From contig NZ_FUYR01000001.1 of the NCBI RefSeq assembly GCF_900168015.1, positions 1,858,943 to 1,922,942 on the forward strand: a DNA stretch of 64,000 bases, in the 5' to 3' direction. Below the pieces are notes generated by a model, which worked only from the letters and a program-made list of their open reading frames with translations, made no database searches and was not told the origin of the DNA. This document shows, piece after piece, positions 1,037 through 10,800 of this stretch. This DNA is from Daejeonella lutea (GTDB lineage: Bacteria > Bacteroidota > Bacteroidia > Sphingobacteriales > Sphingobacteriaceae). The translations under genes were made by a program, and so were the position numbers. Each line of letters opens with the position of its first letter. Position 1 is the first letter of the stretch.

Positions 1037-4000
1037 TTATAGTGTAGCTCTAAGGAAGAAACCATAATTTCTTGCCTGAGGCAAATCATTTGATGTAAAC
1101 CCTTGAGAATTACTAACACCTTGCGCGGCAGTTTCGGGATCGAAATGAGGGAAGTTAGGCGCATACAGATATAGGTTTCTTCCATTCACACCAATTTCCA
1201 GTTTACCTACTGGCGTTTTTTGGAGCAATTTAGCAGGTAGTGTATACGAAACAGATACTTCTCTTACTCTGAACCATGAGCCATCAAAAACGTATGATTC
1301 TCCGAGACCGAATGCATATAAGTTATCCCAATATGCCTGTGCCGTAACTGGTGTAGTATTCGGCTGTCCGTTGGCAAGAGTTCCTTCAATTACATAAGGT
1401 TTAGTTTGTACACCGGCAGCATCAAGACGGGCGAATTCTGCAGTTTCTTTTGCTACACCCGTTCTATAAATGTCACCTATATTCCTTGAATAGATATCTC
1501 CCCCTTTACGTATATCCAGCAGGAAACTGGTATTGAAGTTTTTGATCCTGATATTGTTCGTGATACCGGCAGTCCAGTCAGGGTTTGTATTACCGATAGC
1601 ACCCAATGTCGGACTTAAGGATGTTAATCCGTTTGCTCCAATGAGTAATTTACCATCCGGCGCACGGTTAAACTTGGAGCCAAATAATAAGCCATAAGGC
1701 TGACCCGCGTATAAACGTGTTCCGGGAGATACGAAACCACCCAATTGGATAAAGGCTACTCCAGGTGCTAATGACTCGACAGTCGGCGTAATTTTAGACC
1801 AGTTTGCAGAAACTGTCCATGCACCATTCTGCGTTTTCAATGGAGTTCCTGACAGCATCAGCTCGAAGCCTTTTTGCTTTAATGTGCCGGCATTTCTGTT
1901 CTGTGACTGGAATCCTGTTGAAGGACCGACAGGAACCTCAAAAATAAGGTCAGTAGATGATGTTCTGTAAGCGTTTGCCTCAATAGCCAACCTGTCTTTT
2001 AAGAACCTTATTTCAAGTCCTATTTCTTTGGAGGCGGTAAACTCCGGTTTCAAATTTGGATCCCGCTGGATATTACTCAAACTTCGTCCGTTCAAGCTGT
2101 TATACGGGAAGGCGATCGCAGGTCCAAACCCATCAGATGCGCTCGCCTGCACAAACACAGTATTCGTAGCATAGGCGCCTGCCTCTTTACCAACCTTCGC
2201 ATAGTTTGCAGAAACTTTCAAAAAGCTCAGAATATTATTTTTAAGACCCGGGAAAGCTTCGGTGGCTGTAAAGCTACCGGCAACTGAAGGATAGAAGTAT
2301 GAATTATTTGCTGCACCGAATGTCGATGAATAATCATTCCTTCCTGTAAAACTAAGATTTGCAAAACCCTTATACCCAAAGTTCAGCTCCCCAAATAAGC
2401 CAATCAAGCGGGTTTGGCTTTTACTGTTTGACGCAGTAATTGTTGCTGCATTGGAAACGTTTTTCAGGTCTCTTATAGATAATGATTTACCTGTGGTTGA
2501 GGTATAGCTATAGTTCCTTTCTACAATTTCGTTACCGATATTAAAATCAGCTCTTAAATCCTTGGTGATATTCCTGCTTCCAATAATCTGGAAATAGGAA
2601 TTGATGTCCCGTGAATTTAACGCTTCATTCAAGATTCCGCCGGTCGAGGAAGCAGATGTACTACCGTTACCTCTGGCTCCTATCTGGTCGTACGACAGGG
2701 CATCCAGACCGTAAGAGTCCACACCCAACCTGTAGTTAAGACTCATCCATGGCAGCACATCATATTTGAAATTAGCATTCCCAATTACCCTGTTGACAAC
2801 ATCATCATAGGTGTTATTTTTCAAGGTCCAGATTGGATTGTCTGTAGCGTCAAAGTATATAGGAGAACCATCGGCGGTTTCCGTAGGATAATTCTTCAGA
2901 TCATAAGAACGAGGCAGGAAATAAGCCCTGAAAAAAGGGTTAGAGGTTTGATTACCGAATTGTGATCTCGAAGAATTCGAAAGGACATATTGGGCAGATA
3001 CCCCGACTAAAAACTTCGGAGCAACCTGTGAACTTGCATTCAGGGTAAAATTGTTTCTTTTCAGGTCATTATTGGTCAAATAGCCTTTTTCCTGTAAGTT
3101 ACCGTATGATAATCTGTAATTAGACCTATCGGTTCCGCCCTGAAAACTCACGTTATTTTGCAGGTTATGACCCTGTCTGAATATATCTTCAACGTTATTC
3201 GGATATACAGTCAAATTTTCAGTTGTGCCTAAAAAATTAGTTACTGCCTGGCCCTTAATTTCCGGACCCCAGGATAAAATCGAATTCGCACTATAAGTCC
3301 CGCCCGTGCCCTGCGCGTAAGTATTTTGATAATCAGGCAGCACATTTGGTTCTACCAGGTTGAAAGAAGAATTATACTCAACGCTGTTCTTAGCCCCAGT
3401 TTTGCCTTTTTTAGTAGTGATGAGAATAACACCATTTGAGCCTCTCGAGCCATATAAGGCAGCAGCGGCCGGACCTTTCAGAATAGACATATTTTCAATG
3501 TCGTCCTGGTTAATATCAATAGCTCTGTTCGAATTTGTTACACCTGAATTTATACTGTTTAAACCTCCGGTGTTGTCAATTGGCACGCCATCAACAACGA
3601 ATAAGGGCTGATTTGAACCGGTAAACGTTGTAAAGCCTCTGATAAAAATACTTGAAGACGAGCCCACACTTCCACTTGTAGACGCTACTCTTACACCGGC
3701 TACTTTACCAGCCAAAGCGTTAACCGGATTGGAAGTTCTTCCGGTAATCAGCTCTTCACTGGAAACTGTTGCCACTGAATAACCCAAATCAGCTTTGTTT
3801 CTTTTTACACCCCCTGCTGTCACAACGATTTCGTTGAGCATGGTCAGATCAGTAACAAGCGTTACATTGATTACATCCGAGCTACCTATTGTAATAAGCT
3901 GCGTTTTGTAGCTTACATAGCTAAACTCCAGCTGGCTGGCTCCCCGGGGAACTTGTAACACGTATTGGCCGGTTGAGCTTGTTGTTGTGCCGGCGCTGGT

Positions 4001-4141
4001 ATTCTTAACACGGATCGAAACTCCTGGTAAAGGCAGCCCATCATCTCCCTTAACAGTACCTGAGATTGCCCTGGTTTGAGCAATCGTGAATTGGGAGATT
4101 AAGACCCCCAATAATAATAACATGAGTAGTTTTACTTTCAT
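1037..4141 (-). CDS. SusC/RagA-type TonB-linked outer membrane transporter
   Basis: About 1034 residues, normal for SusC. I start at ATG 4141 (MKVKLLMLLLLGVL), which gives a clean signal peptide ending near IAQ; a start ten codons upstream would put a polar tail before it. After the signal come a carboxypeptidase-D-like regulatory domain (ISGTVKGDDGLPLPGVSI), a TonB-box-like stretch (LNEIVVTAGG), the plug (AGVRV, FIRGFTTF, LFVVDGVPID, SILKGPAAAALYGSRGSNG) and a long barrel ending in aromatic-rich strands. It should import oligomers together with the SusD partner downstream, powered by TonB-ExbBD. An AraC-type regulator gene lies upstream on the same strand, beyond a repeat-rich intergenic region, and may or may not control the pair. 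Confidence 0.95.
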   Translation of the reverse strand: MKVKLLMLLLLGVLISQFTIAQTRAISGTVKGDDGLPLPGVSIRVKNTSAGTTTSSTGQYVLQVPRGASQLEFSYVSYKTQLITIGSSDVINVTLVTDLTMLNEIVVTAGGVKRNKADLGYSVATVSSEELITGRTSNPVNALAGKVAGVRVASTSGSVGSSSSIFIRGFTTFTGSNQPLFVVDGVPIDNTGGLNSINSGVTNSNRAIDINQDDIENMSILKGPAAAALYGSRGSNGVILITTKKGKTGAKNSVEYNSSFNLVEPNVLPDYQNTYAQGTGGTYSANSILSWGPEIKGQAVTNFLGTTENLTVYPNNVEDIFRQGHNLQNNVSFQGGTDRSNYRLSYGNLQEKGYLTNNDLKRNNFTLNASSQVAPKFLVGVSAQYVLSNSSRSQFGNQTSNPFFRAYFLPRSYDLKNYPTETADGSPIYFDATDNPIWTLKNNTYDDVVNRVIGNANFKYDVLPWMSLNYRLGVDSYGLDALSYDQIGARGNGSTSASSTGGILNEALNSRDINSYFQIIGSRNITKDLRADFNIGNEIVERNYSYTSTTGKSLSIRDLKNVSNAATITASNSKSQTRLIGLFGELNFGYKGFANLSFTGRNDYSSTFGAANNSYFYPSVAGSFTATEAFPGLKNNILSFLKVSANYAKVGKEAGAYATNTVFVQASASDGFGPAIAFPYNSLNGRSLSNIQRDPNLKPEFTASKEIGLEIRFLKDRLAIEANAYRTSSTDLIFEVPVGPSTGFQSQNRNAGTLKQKGFELMLSGTPLKTQNGAWTVSANWSKITPTVESLAPGVAFIQLGGFVSPGTRLYAGQPYGLLFGSKFNRAPDGKLLIGANGLTSLSPTLGAIGNTNPDWTAGITNNIRIKNFNTSFLLDIRKGGDIYSRNIGDIYRTGVAKETAEFARLDAAGVQTKPYVIEGTLANGQPNTTPVTAQAYWDNLYAFGLGESYVFDGSWFRVREVSVSYTLPAKLLQKTPVGKLEIGVNGRNLYLYAPNFPHFDPETAAQGVSNSQGFTSNDLPQARNYGFFLRATL

Positions 4142-4235
4142 AATAAATTGGTTATGGTTATCAATCGGCAATAGTAGCAGTTCTCTATCCGGAAGTATAT
4201 ACCCAGATCACCTATTGGGGAGTTGTTCGTTTAAA

Positions 4236-4524: not shown

Positions 4525-5388
4525 TCAAGCCCTAAGCAATTCTGTTGGGGTAGTGCTGTATGTGCGCTTGTAAGCCCTGATAAATGCGCTGGAGCATCCA
4601 AAGCCTACTTCCATGCTAATGTTCCGCACACTTGATGAACTGGTTTTAAGCATAAACTGTGCACGTTCAAGCCGGATCCTGGTCAGGAACTGAAAGGGAG
4701 TCTGGTTAAAGGCATCTTTGAATGTTCGGAGCAAATGATTAACGGAAAGGCAAGCTGCGTTCGCGATCTCTGACAGCGTGAGTGCTTTGTTATAATTGCT
4801 CAGGATATAGTCGCGGGCGATGGCCAGTCTCCGGTAAACTTCCTTTCGGGTAGAGAGGCTTGAGAACTTGAGTTTTTCAGCCTTCATCAGTACCTCATTG
4901 TGGTATACCTTAGAGAAATCGATCAGGCATCTGAATAAATGCTCCTGGAGCAGCAGGTCGTCCTCCAGTTCATTATCCATGTAGTTCTTTAAATGCATGA
5001 TATTATACTTCATATCACCCTTAAACGGGTAAATATTTTCCGGGCACCATTGCTGTCCGTCCTTTCTGAGGTCCAGATTGTCAAGCAGCTTTTCAGTACG
5101 GTTAACAAGCACTGAACGGTAGTCGCTCAAAAAGCCAGGGTTAAACTGAATAGAAAAAGCATTAACGGGCGATTTGGAATCAAAGGTCCCAGATCGGGAG
5201 CTACCGTTATTTAATACCAGAAAATCACCTGGATAAATGGTCACATTCCGACGTCCCAGGAGATACTCTTTATTTCCGTTAAAGACGGTATGAATCGAGA
5301 ATCCGGAAATAGTTTCCTGGTACCCTTCATCTGTAATGACGTGAGACATCAGCGCACTATTTGTCTCTAAAACTCTGACCTGTTTCAT
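4525..5388 (-). CDS. AraC-family transcriptional regulator
   Basis: 287 residues. The N-terminal half is a cupin-like effector domain (YLLGRRNVTIYPGDFLVLNNG). The C-terminal hundred residues are a double HTH of the AraC type: first helix-turn-helix around LSEIANAACLSVNHLLRTF, second around VRNISMEVGFGCSSAFIRAYKR, linked by FQFLTRIRLERA. AraC proteins of this layout usually activate genes nearby in response to a small ligand. The gene starts 3 nt after the stop of the VOC gene, so both form an operon driven by the dyad promoter near 5790-5834. Target genes are unknown; the SusC/SusD pair downstream is a reasonable guess. Confidence 0.92.
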   Translation of the reverse strand: MKQVRVLETNSALMSHVITDEGYQETISGFSIHTVFNGNKEYLLGRRNVTIYPGDFLVLNNGSSRSGTFDSKSPVNAFSIQFNPGFLSDYRSVLVNRTEKLLDNLDLRKDGQQWCPENIYPFKGDMKYNIMHLKNYMDNELEDDLLLQEHLFRCLIDFSKVYHNEVLMKAEKLKFSSLSTRKEVYRRLAIARDYILSNYNKALTLSEIANAACLSVNHLLRTFKDAFNQTPFQFLTRIRLERAQFMLKTSSSSVRNISMEVGFGCSSAFIRAYKRTYSTTPTELLRA

Positions 5389-5391
5389 ATT

Positions 5392-5766
5392 CTATGAGTA
5401 TTCGCGTTCTTCAAGCAGTATTATTACGTTTCCTAGTTCATCCTGAAACTTTGAGGCTAAGCCCAGCGTGGTGGAGATTGGGGGCTCAGTACAGCTGAAG
5501 CCTGAATTCTTTAGTCTCAGTGTGTGATGGATGCAGTTACTTGTTGTAAGGAAGGAATAGGACAGGGTTGGACTGTTCCGGACAAGAACAAATCCGTTGT
5601 CGCTGGCGTGAGAGTTTTTGATTACCAATGCGTCGAACATTTCGACGCTTGTTGTATTTTCTAATCCGAAAAGCTGGCTGTAGATCTGCACAGCGATATT
5701 TGTATTTTTCGCTTTAAATACAGGATAACGAACACCAAGCCTTACTAAATTATCCATTCTCCCCAT
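5392..5766 (-). CDS. VOC/glyoxalase-like small protein
   Basis: 124 residues resembling one vicinal-oxygen-chelate module pair: an N-terminal beta-alpha segment (VRYPVFKAKNTNIAVQIYSQ), a middle strand region, and a C-terminal FQDELGNVIILLEE strand typical of VOC domains, where the last glutamate often binds metal. Enzyme activity cannot be assigned; many such proteins bind ligands or confer resistance. An alternative ATG lies three codons in. It is translationally close to the AraC regulator, suggesting the two are used together, perhaps with the VOC protein handling or sensing the effector; that link is inference. Confidence 0.65.
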   Translation of the reverse strand: MGRMDNLVRLGVRYPVFKAKNTNIAVQIYSQLFGLENTTSVEMFDALVIKNSHASDNGFVLVRNSPTLSYSFLTTSNCIHHTLRLKNSGFSCTEPPISTTLGLASKFQDELGNVIILLEEREYS

Positions 5767-5785: not shown

Positions 5786-5834
5786 CAAAGGTATTGAGGA
5801 ACGCTTAGGTGTACTATCCCCCAGGTCGGGGGGT
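5786..5834 (-). promoter_or_regulatory. Dyad promoter of the VOC-araC operon (site 1)
   Basis: Read on the minus strand: a C-rich/G-rich dyad at 5818-5833 (CCCCCC-GACCT-GGGGG), then ATAGTA, then 18 nt later the -7 box TACCTTTG (5786-5793), 20 nt before the ATG at 5766. The dyad, the following ATAGTA and the spacing to the -7 box are nearly identical to site 2 at 9717-9764, which is strong internal evidence for a regulator site. No clear -33 element is seen, as expected for an activator-dependent promoter. Confidence 0.7.
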
Positions 5835-5884
5835 TTTTAACTTAAAAAGAAATAGTAGGGCAATATTTTCGTTACAAAAATTTA

Positions 5885-6517
5885 TTATAAGAGCTTTAGT
5901 GCCTTTGCTTTCTGGATAGCCTCAACTTTAGACCCTACCTCCAGCTTCAGATAAATATTCTTCACATGTGACTTAACCGTTTCACCATCAATATTCAGTT
6001 CATTCGCTATCTCACCACGCCCTTTCCCCTGCGACATCAGCTTAAGAATTTCAGTTTGTCGTTCTGACAGCGGAGAGTTGGGATTCTTATGAAAAGTTTG
6101 AATGACCATTCGCGCAATGTTATCACTTAATGGCACACCTCCACTAACGACAGTCCTGATAGAGCTGAGCATTTTTTCTATTGAAATATCTTTAGTGAGA
6201 TATCCAATAGCACCATTAGACAAGGCTTTTAAAACACCCTCTTCAAACTGATGAACGGTCAGCATAACAATTTGGCTGCGGGGTGTTAGCTGTTTCAAAT
6301 GTGTTACAGCTTCAATTCCGCTCAGCCCTGGGAGCTCGATGTCGAGCAAGATTACGTCAGGATCGTCGGCACCGATCTCAGCTGCCGACTGCTCATATGA
6401 ATTATAAGAAGATACTACTATAAAGCCGGGTTCGCTATCAATTAGCGCAGCATAAGTCTCACGTAGCACGTGGTCATCCTCAATTATTGTGACCCTTATT
6501 AAATCTTTATCCTTCAT
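5885..6517 (-). CDS. LuxR/NarL-family response regulator
   Basis: 210 residues. The receiver domain has the acidic pair EDD near residues 14-16, the phospho-acceptor D59 in VILLDIELPG, a conserved T (MLTVH) and K (YLTKD). The C-terminal domain is a LuxR-type HTH (LSERQTEILKLMSQGKGRGEIANEL ... VKSHVKNIYLKL, split here). The start overlaps the kinase gene by 11 nt, so the pair is translated together and they are almost certainly partners. The CCC-N6-GGG dyads on both sides of this locus have the 7-2-7 symmetry seen for NarL-family proteins, making this protein the best candidate to bind them. Confidence 0.95.
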   Translation of the reverse strand: MKDKDLIRVTIIEDDHVLRETYAALIDSEPGFIVVSSYNSYEQSAAEIGADDPDVILLDIELPGLSGIEAVTHLKQLTPRSQIVMLTVHQFEEGVLKALSNGAIGYLTKDISIEKMLSSIRTVVSGGVPLSDNIARMVIQTFHKNPNSPLSERQTEILKLMSQGKGRGEIANELNIDGETVKSHVKNIYLKLEVGSKVEAIQKAKALKLL

Positions 6518-9422
6518 GCTTTCCGAGAGGTGAGAATGTTAATTTTATCGTGGTGCCTTTGCCGGGAATCGAATCAATTTGGAGGTCGCCATTTATCCTC
6601 TGCGCACGTGTTTTCATATTCTTTAAGCCATTGCTGTACTTCTTGATGTCTTCCTGAATACCGATACCGTTATCGAACAAAGTGATCTCGATGCGATTAT
6701 TGTCAGGCTGGCTTACCGCAAGCTCAACACTCGAAGCTTTCGAATGCTTTAAAACGTTGTTCAATGCCTCTTTAAAGATCATCGTGAGGTGCCGGGAATA
6801 TTGGTATGGGAGCTGAATTTCGTTTAGCTCATGAAATACTCCGGATACCTTGAAATCAATAGTTGTATCTTCAAGAAGAGACGTCGCATAATTCCTGATA
6901 AATAAAACGATCTCATAAAAATTATCACTCTCCGGACTTATAGACCAAATGATATGCTTAGTACCTTCGTAAAGCTCAGCGGCATTGAGCTTTATTTTTC
7001 TGATAACGTCTTTCGCCGCTTCATCCTTCCCGGCAGTCATGCGACTAAGGAGATCTGACAAGGCAGAGATCCGCGCAAGTTTGTTTCCGAGATCGTCATG
7101 GAAATCTTCGGAAGTCTGCTGGCGGACTTTCAGTTGCTCCTCTTCTTTGATCCGCTCCCGCAACAGCACTTTTTGACGCTTGCGCGCAGCAAGGTATTCC
7201 CTGATACTGATAAACGTTATGCCCATCAGCAGAATAATAAATAAACGGAATAACAGTGTATCGTAATAGGGCTGCGAAATGTAAAATGCAAAGGTTGCAG
7301 TGTTCGACTTTACTCCGCGGGGGCTATAAGCAATCACCCGGAACTCGTATTCTCCCGGGCTCAACGAACTGTAAGAAACATTTGTATTTCTGCCAGGAGG
7401 AGAATAAGCACTCTCAAGTCCGACCAACCGATGCTGGTAATTGACGTTCTCCGGGTCGCTCAAATAAACTGCTTGATAGCTTATATTTAAATTATTTTCA
7501 TCTGGATTGAATTTATGCCTGTGATCTTTTGAAACATTAGTTAACGTGGCCTTGCCATTTATAATATTAATAAGCTGGGTGTTGGTGATCTGTAGCTTAG
7601 GTGCGAAAACAGGTGCCGTAACGGATTTAATATTATATATATAGATACCCTTTGTAGTACCAAACCAGACTTCACCACCATTGAATATTAATGCCATCGT
7701 GTTACATTCTACCGCTGGGGTACCGCCTTCTGAAGCCGGAAATACCTGGAATTTGAATCTTTCGGTATTTATCTTAATCTTGTTCACACCTCTGCCCGTT
7801 CCAGCCCAGACCACGCCATATTTATCTTCTTTTAGGCTGTAGATTACATCCGAAAGCAGCCCATCGACCACTGTACAGTTAGCCACTTTACCAGTTTTCA
7901 TATCCCATAAGAATATTCCCTGGTCACTGGTACCGACAAGCATCAGATTTTGGTATTTGACCAGCGAAACAATTTGCGAATGAGAAAATGGAAGCGACTC
8001 ATAAGGCTTCGTCAGACTCTGCCCGGATAACATTTGAATTCCGTTAGTAGTGCCGATTAGAATTTTCCCATTATCTATCTGACAGAAGGAAATGGGCATA
8101 TCACTGAAGTGTGGTATCTCCTGAAGATGCCCCTTATGATACGAGTATAATTTTGTCCGCGCCCCAATCAATATTCCGTGTACATCGGATTCAGCAATGG
8201 ATAATACGTTAGGTATATTATCAATGATCTTAAAGGTACCGCCCAAAAAATATCCCAGGCCGGCACTTGTTGCAATCCAGATCCTGCTGGTTTTATCCCG
8301 GTAAATGGTTAGTACCTGACTCGCAGGCCATGGATGATTAAGCCTTTGCAATTTCCCGTTCTCCAATACATAAACTGCTCCGGCGGTGCCGATCCATATT
8401 TTACCCTTACTATCCGTCTCAAGAGCCGTAACTACATTGTCTACCAGACCGAAGTCGGTATCAATAACTTTCAAATCATCGTTACTGAATCGGAATAAGC
8501 CGTAACCGTTGGTACCCAGCCAGAGATTTTTTTCAAAATCCATGAACAGGCCGTAGATAGGGGCATCTGTCAAGCCATTTTTTGCGGTGAAATGCTCCTG
8601 AGATCGTTCCGACACTCTGAAAGCGCCTTTACTGGACCCTATCCAAGTATATCCATTATAATCCACCAACACCGAATACAAATCCTCGGTAATGTTTTTG
8701 AAATATTCACTATGGATAGCCCTAATGCCCTGCTCATCAAAAAGATAAAGAGCAGAACCAGTTACCATCGAAACTTTGCGCAATGGGTCTACAAAAAAAC
8801 TCCGGATAGTCTCATCTTCCTTGAGGAATGAGAAGTCGACTTCTTTAATCCACCTATCTTTGAATGAATAGAGACCCTCCTTGCGGATGCTCACCCATAG
8901 TGTCCCTTCGCTATCAGTTTGAATTGACTCAATTTGGGGCTGTCTGCCGTTAATAGTGATTATCTGGGTAATCAGGGTATCAGTGATCATAAACAATGAC
9001 CCTCTTGCCACTCCCCAGATCCGGTTTTTACTGTCGCACACCATATCCCACATCCATTCATTATGAAACCTGGGAACTCTTAAGTTTTTAAGATGTCGAT
9101 CGCGAAGAATTGAAATGCCCCCGGCAGTACTTATCCAGATATTCTTCTTTTTGTCGGCTATAGCTGCAAAGGCTCTGTTATTTAATAGTCCGTCCTTTTT
9201 AGTCAGACTGGAAAAAGCTGTTCCATTAAAGCGGCTTATCCCGCCAAGGGTAGTGATCCAAAGCGTTCCGGTGGAATCCTGCGAAATCTGGTTAACCTGC
9301 GATTGGACCAGGCCATCCCCGACCTCATAGTGATTAAATATCATTTTCTGGCAGAAGCCCTGGTATCGAAAAGCAATTACCAGAAATATTGCCAGAATAT
9401 ATTTTACTGCTGTTGTAGACAT
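6507..9422 (-). CDS. Two-component propeller/triple-Y sensor histidine kinase
   Basis: 971 residues. A signal peptide is followed by many Reg_prop repeats (GTLWITTLGGISRFNG, GYTWIGSSKGAF, GKIWIGTAGAVYVL) that would form two periplasmic seven-blade propellers, then a Y_Y_Y domain (YSSLSPGEYEFRVIAYSPRG), one membrane helix near residues 730-750, a short linker, a HisKA_3-type dimer domain with FHDDLGNKLARIS (phospho-acceptor H775), and an ATPase domain (N-box EALNNVLKHS, G1 DNGIGI). The architecture resembles hybrid glycan sensors but has no receiver or AraC domain; the separate LuxR-type regulator overlaps its 3' end. The ligand is unknown. The HDDLG box is the type that usually pairs with NarL-type regulators, consistent with the neighbour. 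Confidence 0.95.
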   Translation of the reverse strand: MSTTAVKYILAIFLVIAFRYQGFCQKMIFNHYEVGDGLVQSQVNQISQDSTGTLWITTLGGISRFNGTAFSSLTKKDGLLNNRAFAAIADKKKNIWISTAGGISILRDRHLKNLRVPRFHNEWMWDMVCDSKNRIWGVARGSLFMITDTLITQIITINGRQPQIESIQTDSEGTLWVSIRKEGLYSFKDRWIKEVDFSFLKEDETIRSFFVDPLRKVSMVTGSALYLFDEQGIRAIHSEYFKNITEDLYSVLVDYNGYTWIGSSKGAFRVSERSQEHFTAKNGLTDAPIYGLFMDFEKNLWLGTNGYGLFRFSNDDLKVIDTDFGLVDNVVTALETDSKGKIWIGTAGAVYVLENGKLQRLNHPWPASQVLTIYRDKTSRIWIATSAGLGYFLGGTFKIIDNIPNVLSIAESDVHGILIGARTKLYSYHKGHLQEIPHFSDMPISFCQIDNGKILIGTTNGIQMLSGQSLTKPYESLPFSHSQIVSLVKYQNLMLVGTSDQGIFLWDMKTGKVANCTVVDGLLSDVIYSLKEDKYGVVWAGTGRGVNKIKINTERFKFQVFPASEGGTPAVECNTMALIFNGGEVWFGTTKGIYIYNIKSVTAPVFAPKLQITNTQLINIINGKATLTNVSKDHRHKFNPDENNLNISYQAVYLSDPENVNYQHRLVGLESAYSPPGRNTNVSYSSLSPGEYEFRVIAYSPRGVKSNTATFAFYISQPYYDTLLFRLFIILLMGITFISIREYLAARKRQKVLLRERIKEEEQLKVRQQTSEDFHDDLGNKLARISALSDLLSRMTAGKDEAAKDVIRKIKLNAAELYEGTKHIIWSISPESDNFYEIVLFIRNYATSLLEDTTIDFKVSGVFHELNEIQLPYQYSRHLTMIFKEALNNVLKHSKASSVELAVSQPDNNRIEITLFDNGIGIQEDIKKYSNGLKNMKTRAQRINGDLQIDSIPGKGTTIKLTFSPLGKHEG

Positions 9423-9716
9423 TCAGGATGAAGGGAACTTCATTGAAGAAGTTTGACGATACATAATATAGTTAAAAACGACAATAAACAACCAATCATG
9501 TAAATCTAACAACGATTAATGTGAAATGCTTTCTGCCGAATGGCCGGGCGGACAAATTTAGCTTGTATAAAGGATAGCATCTTAATCAATGATATACCCA
9601 AATCACCTTTTTTCACAATAATGCCTATTAATGTCCCTATTGTTCCACTCTGTGAAGCTTTAAATTGAGAGGATTTGTAACAGAAGTATTGCAGATTTAA
9701 TTAAAATTTTCAAAAA
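9423..9716. other. Gene-free upstream region of the kinase gene
   Basis: A/T-rich spacer between the kinase start and dyad site 2. I see no convincing ORF, RNA hairpin with U-tract or repeat. It presumably holds the kinase promoter, but no good TAnnTTTG box stands out. Confidence 0.5.
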
Positions 9717-9764
9717 CCCCCCGACTTGGGTGATAGTAGCGCTGGAAGCACAGCGGTATCTTTG
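9717..9764 (+). promoter_or_regulatory. Dyad promoter upstream of the HEAT-repeat gene (site 2)
   Basis: Dyad CCCCCC-GACTT-GGG at 9717-9730, then TGATAGTA, then 18 nt, then the -7 box TATCTTTG at 9757-9764. It matches site 1 in the five flanking A residues, the dyad, the GATAGTA tail and the spacing, but points the other way, to the right. The leader to the ATG at 9886 would be about 115 nt. Confidence 0.7.
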
Positions 9765-9885
9765 ATGATATTTTTTATTAATGTAACAGGGATATTCGAA
9801 TCTCTCGTCCTTAGCTCTATAAATGGTGATTTGTGTCGATAGTATAGGATATCCGTATAAGTAATTTTGCCCCATACCAGTCCCT

Positions 9886-10800
9886 ATGAGCTCATTGACT
9901 TCAAATTTAAATGTTATGCAGTTAAACCATAATCAGGAAAATTCGATCAGACCCATTACCCGCAATACTTACAAGGTCCTTAAACTCCATACTAAGGAAT
10001 CCTCTGATAATCTGAACGAATTTTACACGTCAAGCGATTATCACTCAAGACTGTCGGCAATAAAAAATCTGGCAATGCTGTCGGGCGGGCTTGTCCCTTC
10101 ATACATCATGCTGGATGCGATGAAGGACCCCTGCTCTATGATCAGGGAATTTGCCGTGGAGAATTTTGATTACAAAAAGGTGACTGCAGAAATTGAGATG
10201 GAGTTGGCTCGTTTAGCGAAAGAAGATGAAAAGGTTCAAATGCGGATGTTAGCATTGGAAAAACTCTCTGAGATAGACACTCAGGCTCACTACGACTTGT
10301 TCTTTAATTCGTCCCTCTTGAAAAATGCGAAGGAGGCAGCAGCTGGTTTAAAGGCGCTTGCAAAACTGGATATAGAAAAGGCGTACAAAGTTGCTAAATT
10401 CAGGGCTGAAACATCTAAAAGTGACCTCGATATAGCTATAACAGAAGTATTTGCACAGGTTGGCGATATAAAGGACCTCCCCTATTGCAAAAGATACTGC
10501 GGCGAGCGCCAGAACTTCTACAAGACCCGCTATATTCCTTCTTATCTCAGGATGCTCATTAAGGTAGGAAATGCCCGCGTTTTCAAACATCACCTGGACT
10601 TCATGGCAGACGACGTGAAATTCTCTGAAAAGGAGACGCTGCTGCCCATTTTTATTACCCAACTGCAAGCATTAGCGCGGGATTTGAATAAGGGGGACTT
10701 CGATTTAGCTATGCTGAAGCGAGAGCTTTTGCCTTTTGTCAATGACCTTATTGATCAGCTTCTGGAGAACAAGGAAAGAGTCCCAGAGATTTTGAAATAA
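9886..10800 (+). CDS. Orphan HEAT-like helical protein resembling the C-terminal domain of M1 aminopeptidases
   Basis: 304 residues, all-alpha, no signal peptide. Repeats such as YHSRLSAIKNLAMLSG, MLDAMKDPCSMIREFAVENF and MRMLALEKLSEID look like HEAT units, and the order of motifs (degenerate helices, VAKFRAETSKSDLDIAITEV, then FYKTRYIPSYLRMLIK) recalls the C-terminal region of Bacteroidota M1 peptidases. No HEXXH catalytic domain precedes it; the upstream DNA is a promoter instead, so it is a free-standing gene and not a truncated reading frame. An alternative start is ATG 9916. Function unknown; it probably binds protein partners. Shared promoter sequence ties its expression to the VOC-araC operon. 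Confidence 0.75.
   Translation: MSSLTSNLNVMQLNHNQENSIRPITRNTYKVLKLHTKESSDNLNEFYTSSDYHSRLSAIKNLAMLSGGLVPSYIMLDAMKDPCSMIREFAVENFDYKKVTAEIEMELARLAKEDEKVQMRMLALEKLSEIDTQAHYDLFFNSSLLKNAKEAAAGLKALAKLDIEKAYKVAKFRAETSKSDLDIAITEVFAQVGDIKDLPYCKRYCGERQNFYKTRYIPSYLRMLIKVGNARVFKHHLDFMADDVKFSEKETLLPIFITQLQALARDLNKGDFDLAMLKRELLPFVNDLIDQLLENKERVPEILK

Follow-up and report, generated by a model that had tools for sequence, protein, structure and literature searches.

Matching promoter-like sites flank a two-component system of Daejeonella lutea and share a conserved, regulator-linked motif of Bacteroidota

Two closely similar intergenic sites flank a two-component system of Daejeonella lutea, raising the question of what these sites do and which protein acts on them. 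Within the analyzed stretch of DNA (64,000 nucleotides, termed the window), site 1 (5786–5838, minus strand) is located between the regulator gene and the VOC-araC genes, and site 2 (9712–9764, plus strand) between the kinase gene and a HEAT-like gene. Both sites follow the common string AAAAACCCCCCGAYYTGGGKGATAGTA-N18-TAnnTTTG or, with the variable letters written out, AAAAACCCCCCGA-C-(C/T)-TGGG-(G/T)-GATAGTA, 18 nt and TAnnTTTG. The shared elements are five A, a C6 run, GA-C-(C/T)-TGGG and GATAGTA, followed after exactly 18 nt by TACCTTTG in site 1 and TATCTTTG in site 2. The first-pass annotation had proposed matching promoter-like sites on either side of the two-component system, and both its letters and the 18-nt distance to TAnnTTTG were borne out.

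The same annotation had held this agreement to be beyond chance, which the counts confirmed. Allowing up to three mismatches, the core CCCCCGAYYTGGGKGATAGTA yielded exactly two matches in the window compared to a mean of 0.00 in 100 shuffles, and CCCCCGAYYTGGGNGATAGTA scanned over the whole 4.03-Mb genome returned the two window matches and no third (control 0). Requiring the inverted repeat (dyad) together with a TAnnTTTR box at 22 nt, at up to three mismatches, likewise retrieved only the two window sites from the whole genome, the control giving 0 forward and 1 reverse. Dyads at up to two mismatches numbered 30 in this genome versus 10 for the control, so that most of them are to be regarded as weak or chance matches. 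With the box at 21 nt, only the site of a paralogous system and one poor match at three mismatches were obtained (control 0 and 1). A third dyad of this genome at one mismatch (C8:171387) was discarded, as it sits within a reading frame (L096). Searching 151 genomes of the family for the near-window form of the motif at one mismatch gave two candidates outside the own genome (L004, L005), which were assigned to chance, both lying within reading frames and the reversed control giving 3.

The product of the regulator gene combines a receiver with a GerE helix-turn-helix, as in NarL/FixJ-type response regulators, and its closest solved sequence is NarL (1a04, 6.2e-28). The adjoining kinase carries the HATPase_c (4.1e-13) and HisKA_3 domains (3.3e-05, 24.8 bits compared to a cut-off of 24) of a partner kinase. 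The window copy of the VOC-like protein did not reach the cut-off of any Pfam family, and the reading frames at the same position in five other loci reached the Glyoxalase PF00903 cut-off in four cases: the paralogous locus of the own genome, L065 (1.9e-11), L064 (8e-11), L062 (6e-10) and L068 (1.8e-06). The fifth, in L070, stayed below it for PF00903 with 0.003. Next after the SusC gene, outside the window, follows a SusD-like gene (SusD-like_2, 1.4e-76; L234 11461–12966). Beyond both genes on the same strand, just left of the window, L234 further encodes a HlyD-like adaptor, a TolC-type outer membrane efflux protein and two thioredoxin/AhpC-like proteins. For the gene past site 2, the earlier designation as HEAT holds only in the sense of HEAT-like, its Pfam match remaining below the cut-off (Table 1); its relatives show 36–40% identity and come from 7 further genomes of the genus, and the own genome adds a paralog at 41%.

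Table 1 Features of the two sites and the surrounding genes in the window.
Feature	Position	Strand	Remarks
Dyad 1, ACCCCCC-GACCT-GGGGGAT	5816–5834	-	Predicted regulator binding site; 1 mismatch to ATCMCCC-N5-GGGKGAT
-7 box TACCTTTG	5786–5793	-	22 nt past dyad 1; predicted VOC-araC promoter; TAnnTTTG consensus
Dyad 2, ACCCCCC-GACTT-GGGTGAT	9716–9734	+	Predicted regulator binding site; 1 mismatch to the family consensus
-7 box TATCTTTG	9757–9764	+	22 nt past dyad 2; predicted promoter toward the HEAT-like gene
NarL/FixJ-type response regulator	5885–6517	-	Proposed binder; Pfam Response_reg 1.2e-23, GerE 8.2e-17
Sensor histidine kinase	6507–9422	-	Reg_prop propeller, Y_Y_Y, HisKA_3, HATPase_c
VOC/glyoxalase-like small protein	5392–5766	-	First gene past promoter 1
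AraC-family regulator	4525–5388	-	Second gene past promoter 1; HTH_18 2.9e-20
SusC/RagA TonB-dependent receptor	1037–4171	-	TIGR04056 1.4e-179; farther downstream, same strand
HEAT-like protein	9886–10800	+	Gene past promoter 2; HEAT PF02985 0.024, 15.3 bits, cut-off 23.5

To delineate the motif in relatives, we used 15 loci chosen from 33 regulator matches by regulator homology only, one of them being the 48% paralog of the own genome. A kinase match adjoins the regulator in all 15 (in L069 only as a short kinase frame), AraC is present in 11/15 and SusC in 9/15, and a small frame recurs between the regulator and AraC. The locus of the relatives comprises kinase, NarL-type regulator, AraC and SusC genes and in many cases one for a glyoxalase-like protein. 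Its intergenic motif, cleaner than in the window, is ATCMCCC-N5-GGGKGAT, typically 21 nt ahead of TAnnTTT, of which the window form ACCCCCC-GACYT-GGGKGAT is a one-letter variant with a 22-nt gap. The dyad occurs at up to one mismatch in 14 of the 15 loci and in the remaining one, the own paralogous system, at two mismatches. Across these loci the box is found at exactly 21 nt in 15 of the 29 dyads at up to one mismatch and at 22 nt in two of them, and 12/15 loci contain a site with the 21-nt distance.

Scanning spacers of 0–12 nt in the same 15 loci, all 23 exact dyads showed a spacer of 5 nt, while the reversed-sequence control gave none. The symmetry of the motif is accordingly 7-5-7, centred on a base, and the CCC-N6-GGG reading with a 7-2-7 symmetry given in the first-pass annotation had to be abandoned; it arose because the C6 run permits drawing it. 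The heptamers of a NarL 7-2-7 site are 2 bp apart around an even centre, in contrast to the 5 nt and odd centre of these 23 dyads. On the kinase side, 12/15 loci have a dyad that either precedes the first start codon of the kinase frame by at most 100 nt or overlaps it, as would be expected of autoregulation; in L063 it is located just inside the frame. Site 2 corresponds to these kinase-upstream dyads in the window, at a distance of about 290 nt from the kinase gene and with its box on the opposite side.

The distance between dyad and box allows the sites to be placed on a promoter. TAnnTTTG is the -7 consensus of Bacteroidota, and in Flavobacterium this box spans -12 to -5 as described in PMC6847099 and PMC9723704. 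Both TACCTTTG and TATCTTTG agree with the -7 box of Bacteroidota sigma-A promoters (TTTG / TAnnTTTG). With 22 nt between the dyad and the -7 box, the Flavobacterium numbering sets the centre of the dyad near -44 in the window (near -43 in the relatives) and its end at the place of the -33 TTTG. In contrast to the sigma-A promoter, the window sites have no TTTG there, and none is conserved in 66 linked sites; the dyad itself reaches this region. The deduced centre is close to the NarL sites at napF (-40 to -49) and yeaR (-38 to -47), both of which are activated according to PMC4549865.

The most economical reading of this geometry would be an activator site. The dyad may be class II-like, in which case the protein predicted to bind it would contact polymerase. 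In the proposed mechanism, the propeller-type kinase would sense a signal and phosphorylate the NarL/FixJ-type regulator (5885–6517), on whose phosphorylation the response would presumably depend. A dimer of the regulator would then bind the inverted repeat ACCCCCC-N5-GGGKGAT and, positioned near -44 by the 22 nt between dyad and TAnnTTTG, could recruit polymerase. From site 1 this would activate VOC-araC, the AraC protein presumably controlling the downstream SusC/SusD genes, and from site 2 the HEAT-like gene. Geometry alone leaves the sign unfixed, and NarL itself represses at frdA as described in PMC4549865, so the regulator might instead bind and repress, the dyad blocking polymerase until the signal is lost. 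We regard such repression as unlikely, because a dyad ending 21–22 nt before the -7 box replaces the -33 element, for which no TTTG is conserved, and an activator-dependent promoter is therefore to be expected; the proximity of the centres to the activating napF and yeaR sites speaks in the same direction.

Whether the dyad belongs to the response regulator was assessed in 151 genomes of the family, 29 of which encode an ortholog of the regulator at a threshold of E ≤ 1e-40. The exact promoter pattern, dyad-N21-TAnnTTT, occurs at 20 sites in 18 of the 151 genomes, with a reversed control of 0 in 151. A regulator ortholog is present in 17 of the 18 genomes with the exact promoter versus 12 of the 133 without (Fisher p = 7e-14), and 17 of the 20 sites are located within 2.7 kb of it on the same contig. 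Three sites do not conform: in G150 the site lies where a contig starts and the ortholog is found at the end of another one, in G110 it abuts a 35% regulator that missed the ortholog threshold, and in G116:C39 it is unlinked and precedes an AraC-type gene. The exact pattern is absent from 12 of the 29 genomes with an ortholog, the own genome included. Rather than lying at random places or being tied to another regulator, which the first-pass annotation had named as the contrary outcome, the dyad travels with orthologs of the regulator, and its proposal of the encoded regulator as the natural binder is for this reason well supported as a prediction.

A wider scan of genome contigs yielded at least 123 sites in at least 119 stretches. 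Among the matches listed, 67 of the 103 Bacteroidota sites share their stretch with a kinase, regulator or AraC match of at least 140 bits, compared to none of the 20 non-Bacteroidota sites (19 from other phyla, 1 unassigned). The remaining 36 of the 103 listed Bacteroidota sites, having no kinase, regulator or AraC at 140 bits in the stretch examined, may represent unlinked targets, cut stretches, weaker homologs or chance.

The AraC protein encoded past site 1 could be thought to bind the dyads in place of the response regulator, given its orthologs in the 11 regulator-selected loci and beside 41 of the 103 Bacteroidota sites among the matches listed. The dyads between regulator and AraC in L126 and L143 do not discriminate between the two proteins. 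However, 4/15 regulator-selected loci (L056, L058, L060, L069) have dyads and no AraC match in stretches of 14–15 kb. Conversely, five loci with an AraC relative and no kinase or regulator match (L071–L075) lack a dyad at up to one mismatch; one at two mismatches lies inside a reading frame. Judging from this distribution, it is the kinase-regulator pair and not AraC that the dyad accompanies, and binding by AraC appears quite improbable. We consider it likely that both sites serve the flanked two-component system as promoters dependent on an activator, with the regulator of the system as the predicted binder, which would very probably control the neighbouring genes via both sites.

The inverted repeats could also be transcription terminators instead of binding sites. 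Read on the plus strand, site 1 folds into a stem with U5 behind it (-16.3 kcal/mol, z -2.45), and several kinase-upstream dyads of the relatives precede T runs. Site 2, in contrast, folds no better than its shuffles on either strand (z +0.95 and +1.10), and for the minus strand of site 1 the z value is only -0.70. Neither linkage to one regulator nor a favoured spacing of 21 nt from a -7 box would be expected of terminators, rendering this explanation very improbable for the sites. The kinase-upstream dyads of L059, L061 and L064, with T runs directly after them, could double as terminators. A mobile or dispersed repeat that landed twice is a scarcely credible source of the two sites: both share flanking letters (AAAAA, GACYT, GATAGTA), but the genome holds only two copies, their high identity stops at the motif edges, and orthologous loci show the same layout with other spacer letters.

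A comparison with its paralogs also speaks for the response regulator as the predicted binder. The own genome contains nine further matches to it at E ≤ 1e-8, among which the helix TVK-(S/T)-H-(V/I)-KNIY is found only in the 48% paralog. L241–L244 and L248 have other letters at the helix, the alignment of L245 reaches no further than TVEGH, and in L246 and L247 the match is confined to the receiver. No dyad at up to two mismatches was found within 1.5 kb of these eight other regulators (stretches of 3.2–3.6 kb). The locus of the 48% paralog, L065 (G000:C10:1658000-1673000), repeats the order kinase-regulator-VOC-AraC-SusC in the own genome, and its dyad ATCACCC-CTTCG-GGTTGAA, with two mismatches, is located 21 nt ahead of TAAATTTG and before its own VOC-araC.

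The ACCCCCC half-site combined with the 22-nt gap was found in only one of 300 genomes sampled from the order, namely the own genome, the rows of this sample being of the same genus or family. The window regulator in turn departs from its relatives at conserved helix-turn-helix columns, with E154 to Q, F175 to N and N195 to G (window numbering), where the common letter is kept in 57, 51 and 49 of 58 usable rows. It is as if this regulator and both sites had diverged together from the family consensus, as a single case. Comparing by eye the helix residues with the A/C letter of the half-site, for 57 regulators of the scanned loci and the window one, we observed no clean covariation.

The properties of the system are shared in part with NarL/NarP and NarX/NarQ of E. 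coli, which likewise pair a regulator of receiver and GerE domains with a HisKA_3 kinase and use inverted heptamers with a C/G core. Unlike NarX/NarQ, the kinase has a Reg_prop/Y_Y_Y sensor, and the regulator scored 136.4 bits against the NCBIfam NarL equivalog, not reaching its cut-off of 250. A high-affinity NarL site is of the 7-2-7 type, e.g. TACCCCTAAAGGGGTA, according to PMC4549865, whereas the present system has a 7-5-7 arrangement of ATCMCCC halves. The window dyad is accordingly not a NarL 7-2-7 site, yet probably works like one. The hybrid two-component systems (HTCS) of Bacteroides have a propeller-type sensor and SusC/SusD neighbours. As in the present case, their membrane sensor kinase is tied to polysaccharide-utilisation genes (PMC11253607). 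Unlike in an HTCS, where kinase and DNA-binding regulator form one polypeptide, the two are encoded here in separate reading frames (6507–9422 and 5885–6517), the output being a GerE helix-turn-helix.

The motif is real, conserved and regulator-linked, and as a two-component regulator with its sites it is ordinary in kind. A description of it was not found in the literature on motif or regulon, within a partial search that covered few subscription papers. With some reserve, we are inclined to see in it an odd-centred 7-5-7 NarL-type code, ATCMCCC-N5-GGGKGAT at 21–22 nt from the -7 box, that serves one conserved Bacteroidota cascade, mainly of Sphingobacteriaceae, leading from propeller kinase to NarL-type regulator, VOC-AraC and SusC/SusD, with regulator and sites co-diverged in the own genome. 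Propeller-type two-component systems are numerous in Bacteroidota, and to our knowledge few have an assigned DNA motif. In the present case, the sequences of many species suffice to read the motif, its regulator, the geometry of the promoter and the likely first targets, so that cultured strains of Pedobacter or Mucilaginibacter offer a way to test the circuit. Regulator-site pairs that are paralogous or diverged moreover provide material on how half-site letters and spacing are selected by NarL-type proteins.

Among the 36 listed Bacteroidota sites without a match at 140 bits, exact dyad promoters recur ahead of PD40-type genes in Mucilaginibacter (L158 by test; L185, L202, L203 and L213 by sequence likeness) and ahead of DUF2911-type genes (L117 and L163 by test; L153, L195 and L205 by likeness). 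These stretches contain no kinase or regulator except for a 33% regulator in L153 and L163, and the PD40 and DUF2911 genes may form part of a wider regulon.

The HEAT-like gene may be a target specific to the window system, as its relatives in L071–L075 (five loci, L071 in the own genome) are without a dyad at up to one mismatch. In these loci, the HEAT-like genes of the genus are found near an AraC relative and without the two-component system, which may mean that HEAT and AraC were neighbours before they became linked to the two-component system. Strings of the type GATA(G/C)TA-N16-20-TAnnTTTG occur only three times in the window. The third, between site 2 and the HEAT-like gene (9838–9869, plus strand), consists of GATAGTA, 17 nt and TAATTTTG, has no CCC/GGG dyad and may be a second predicted promoter.
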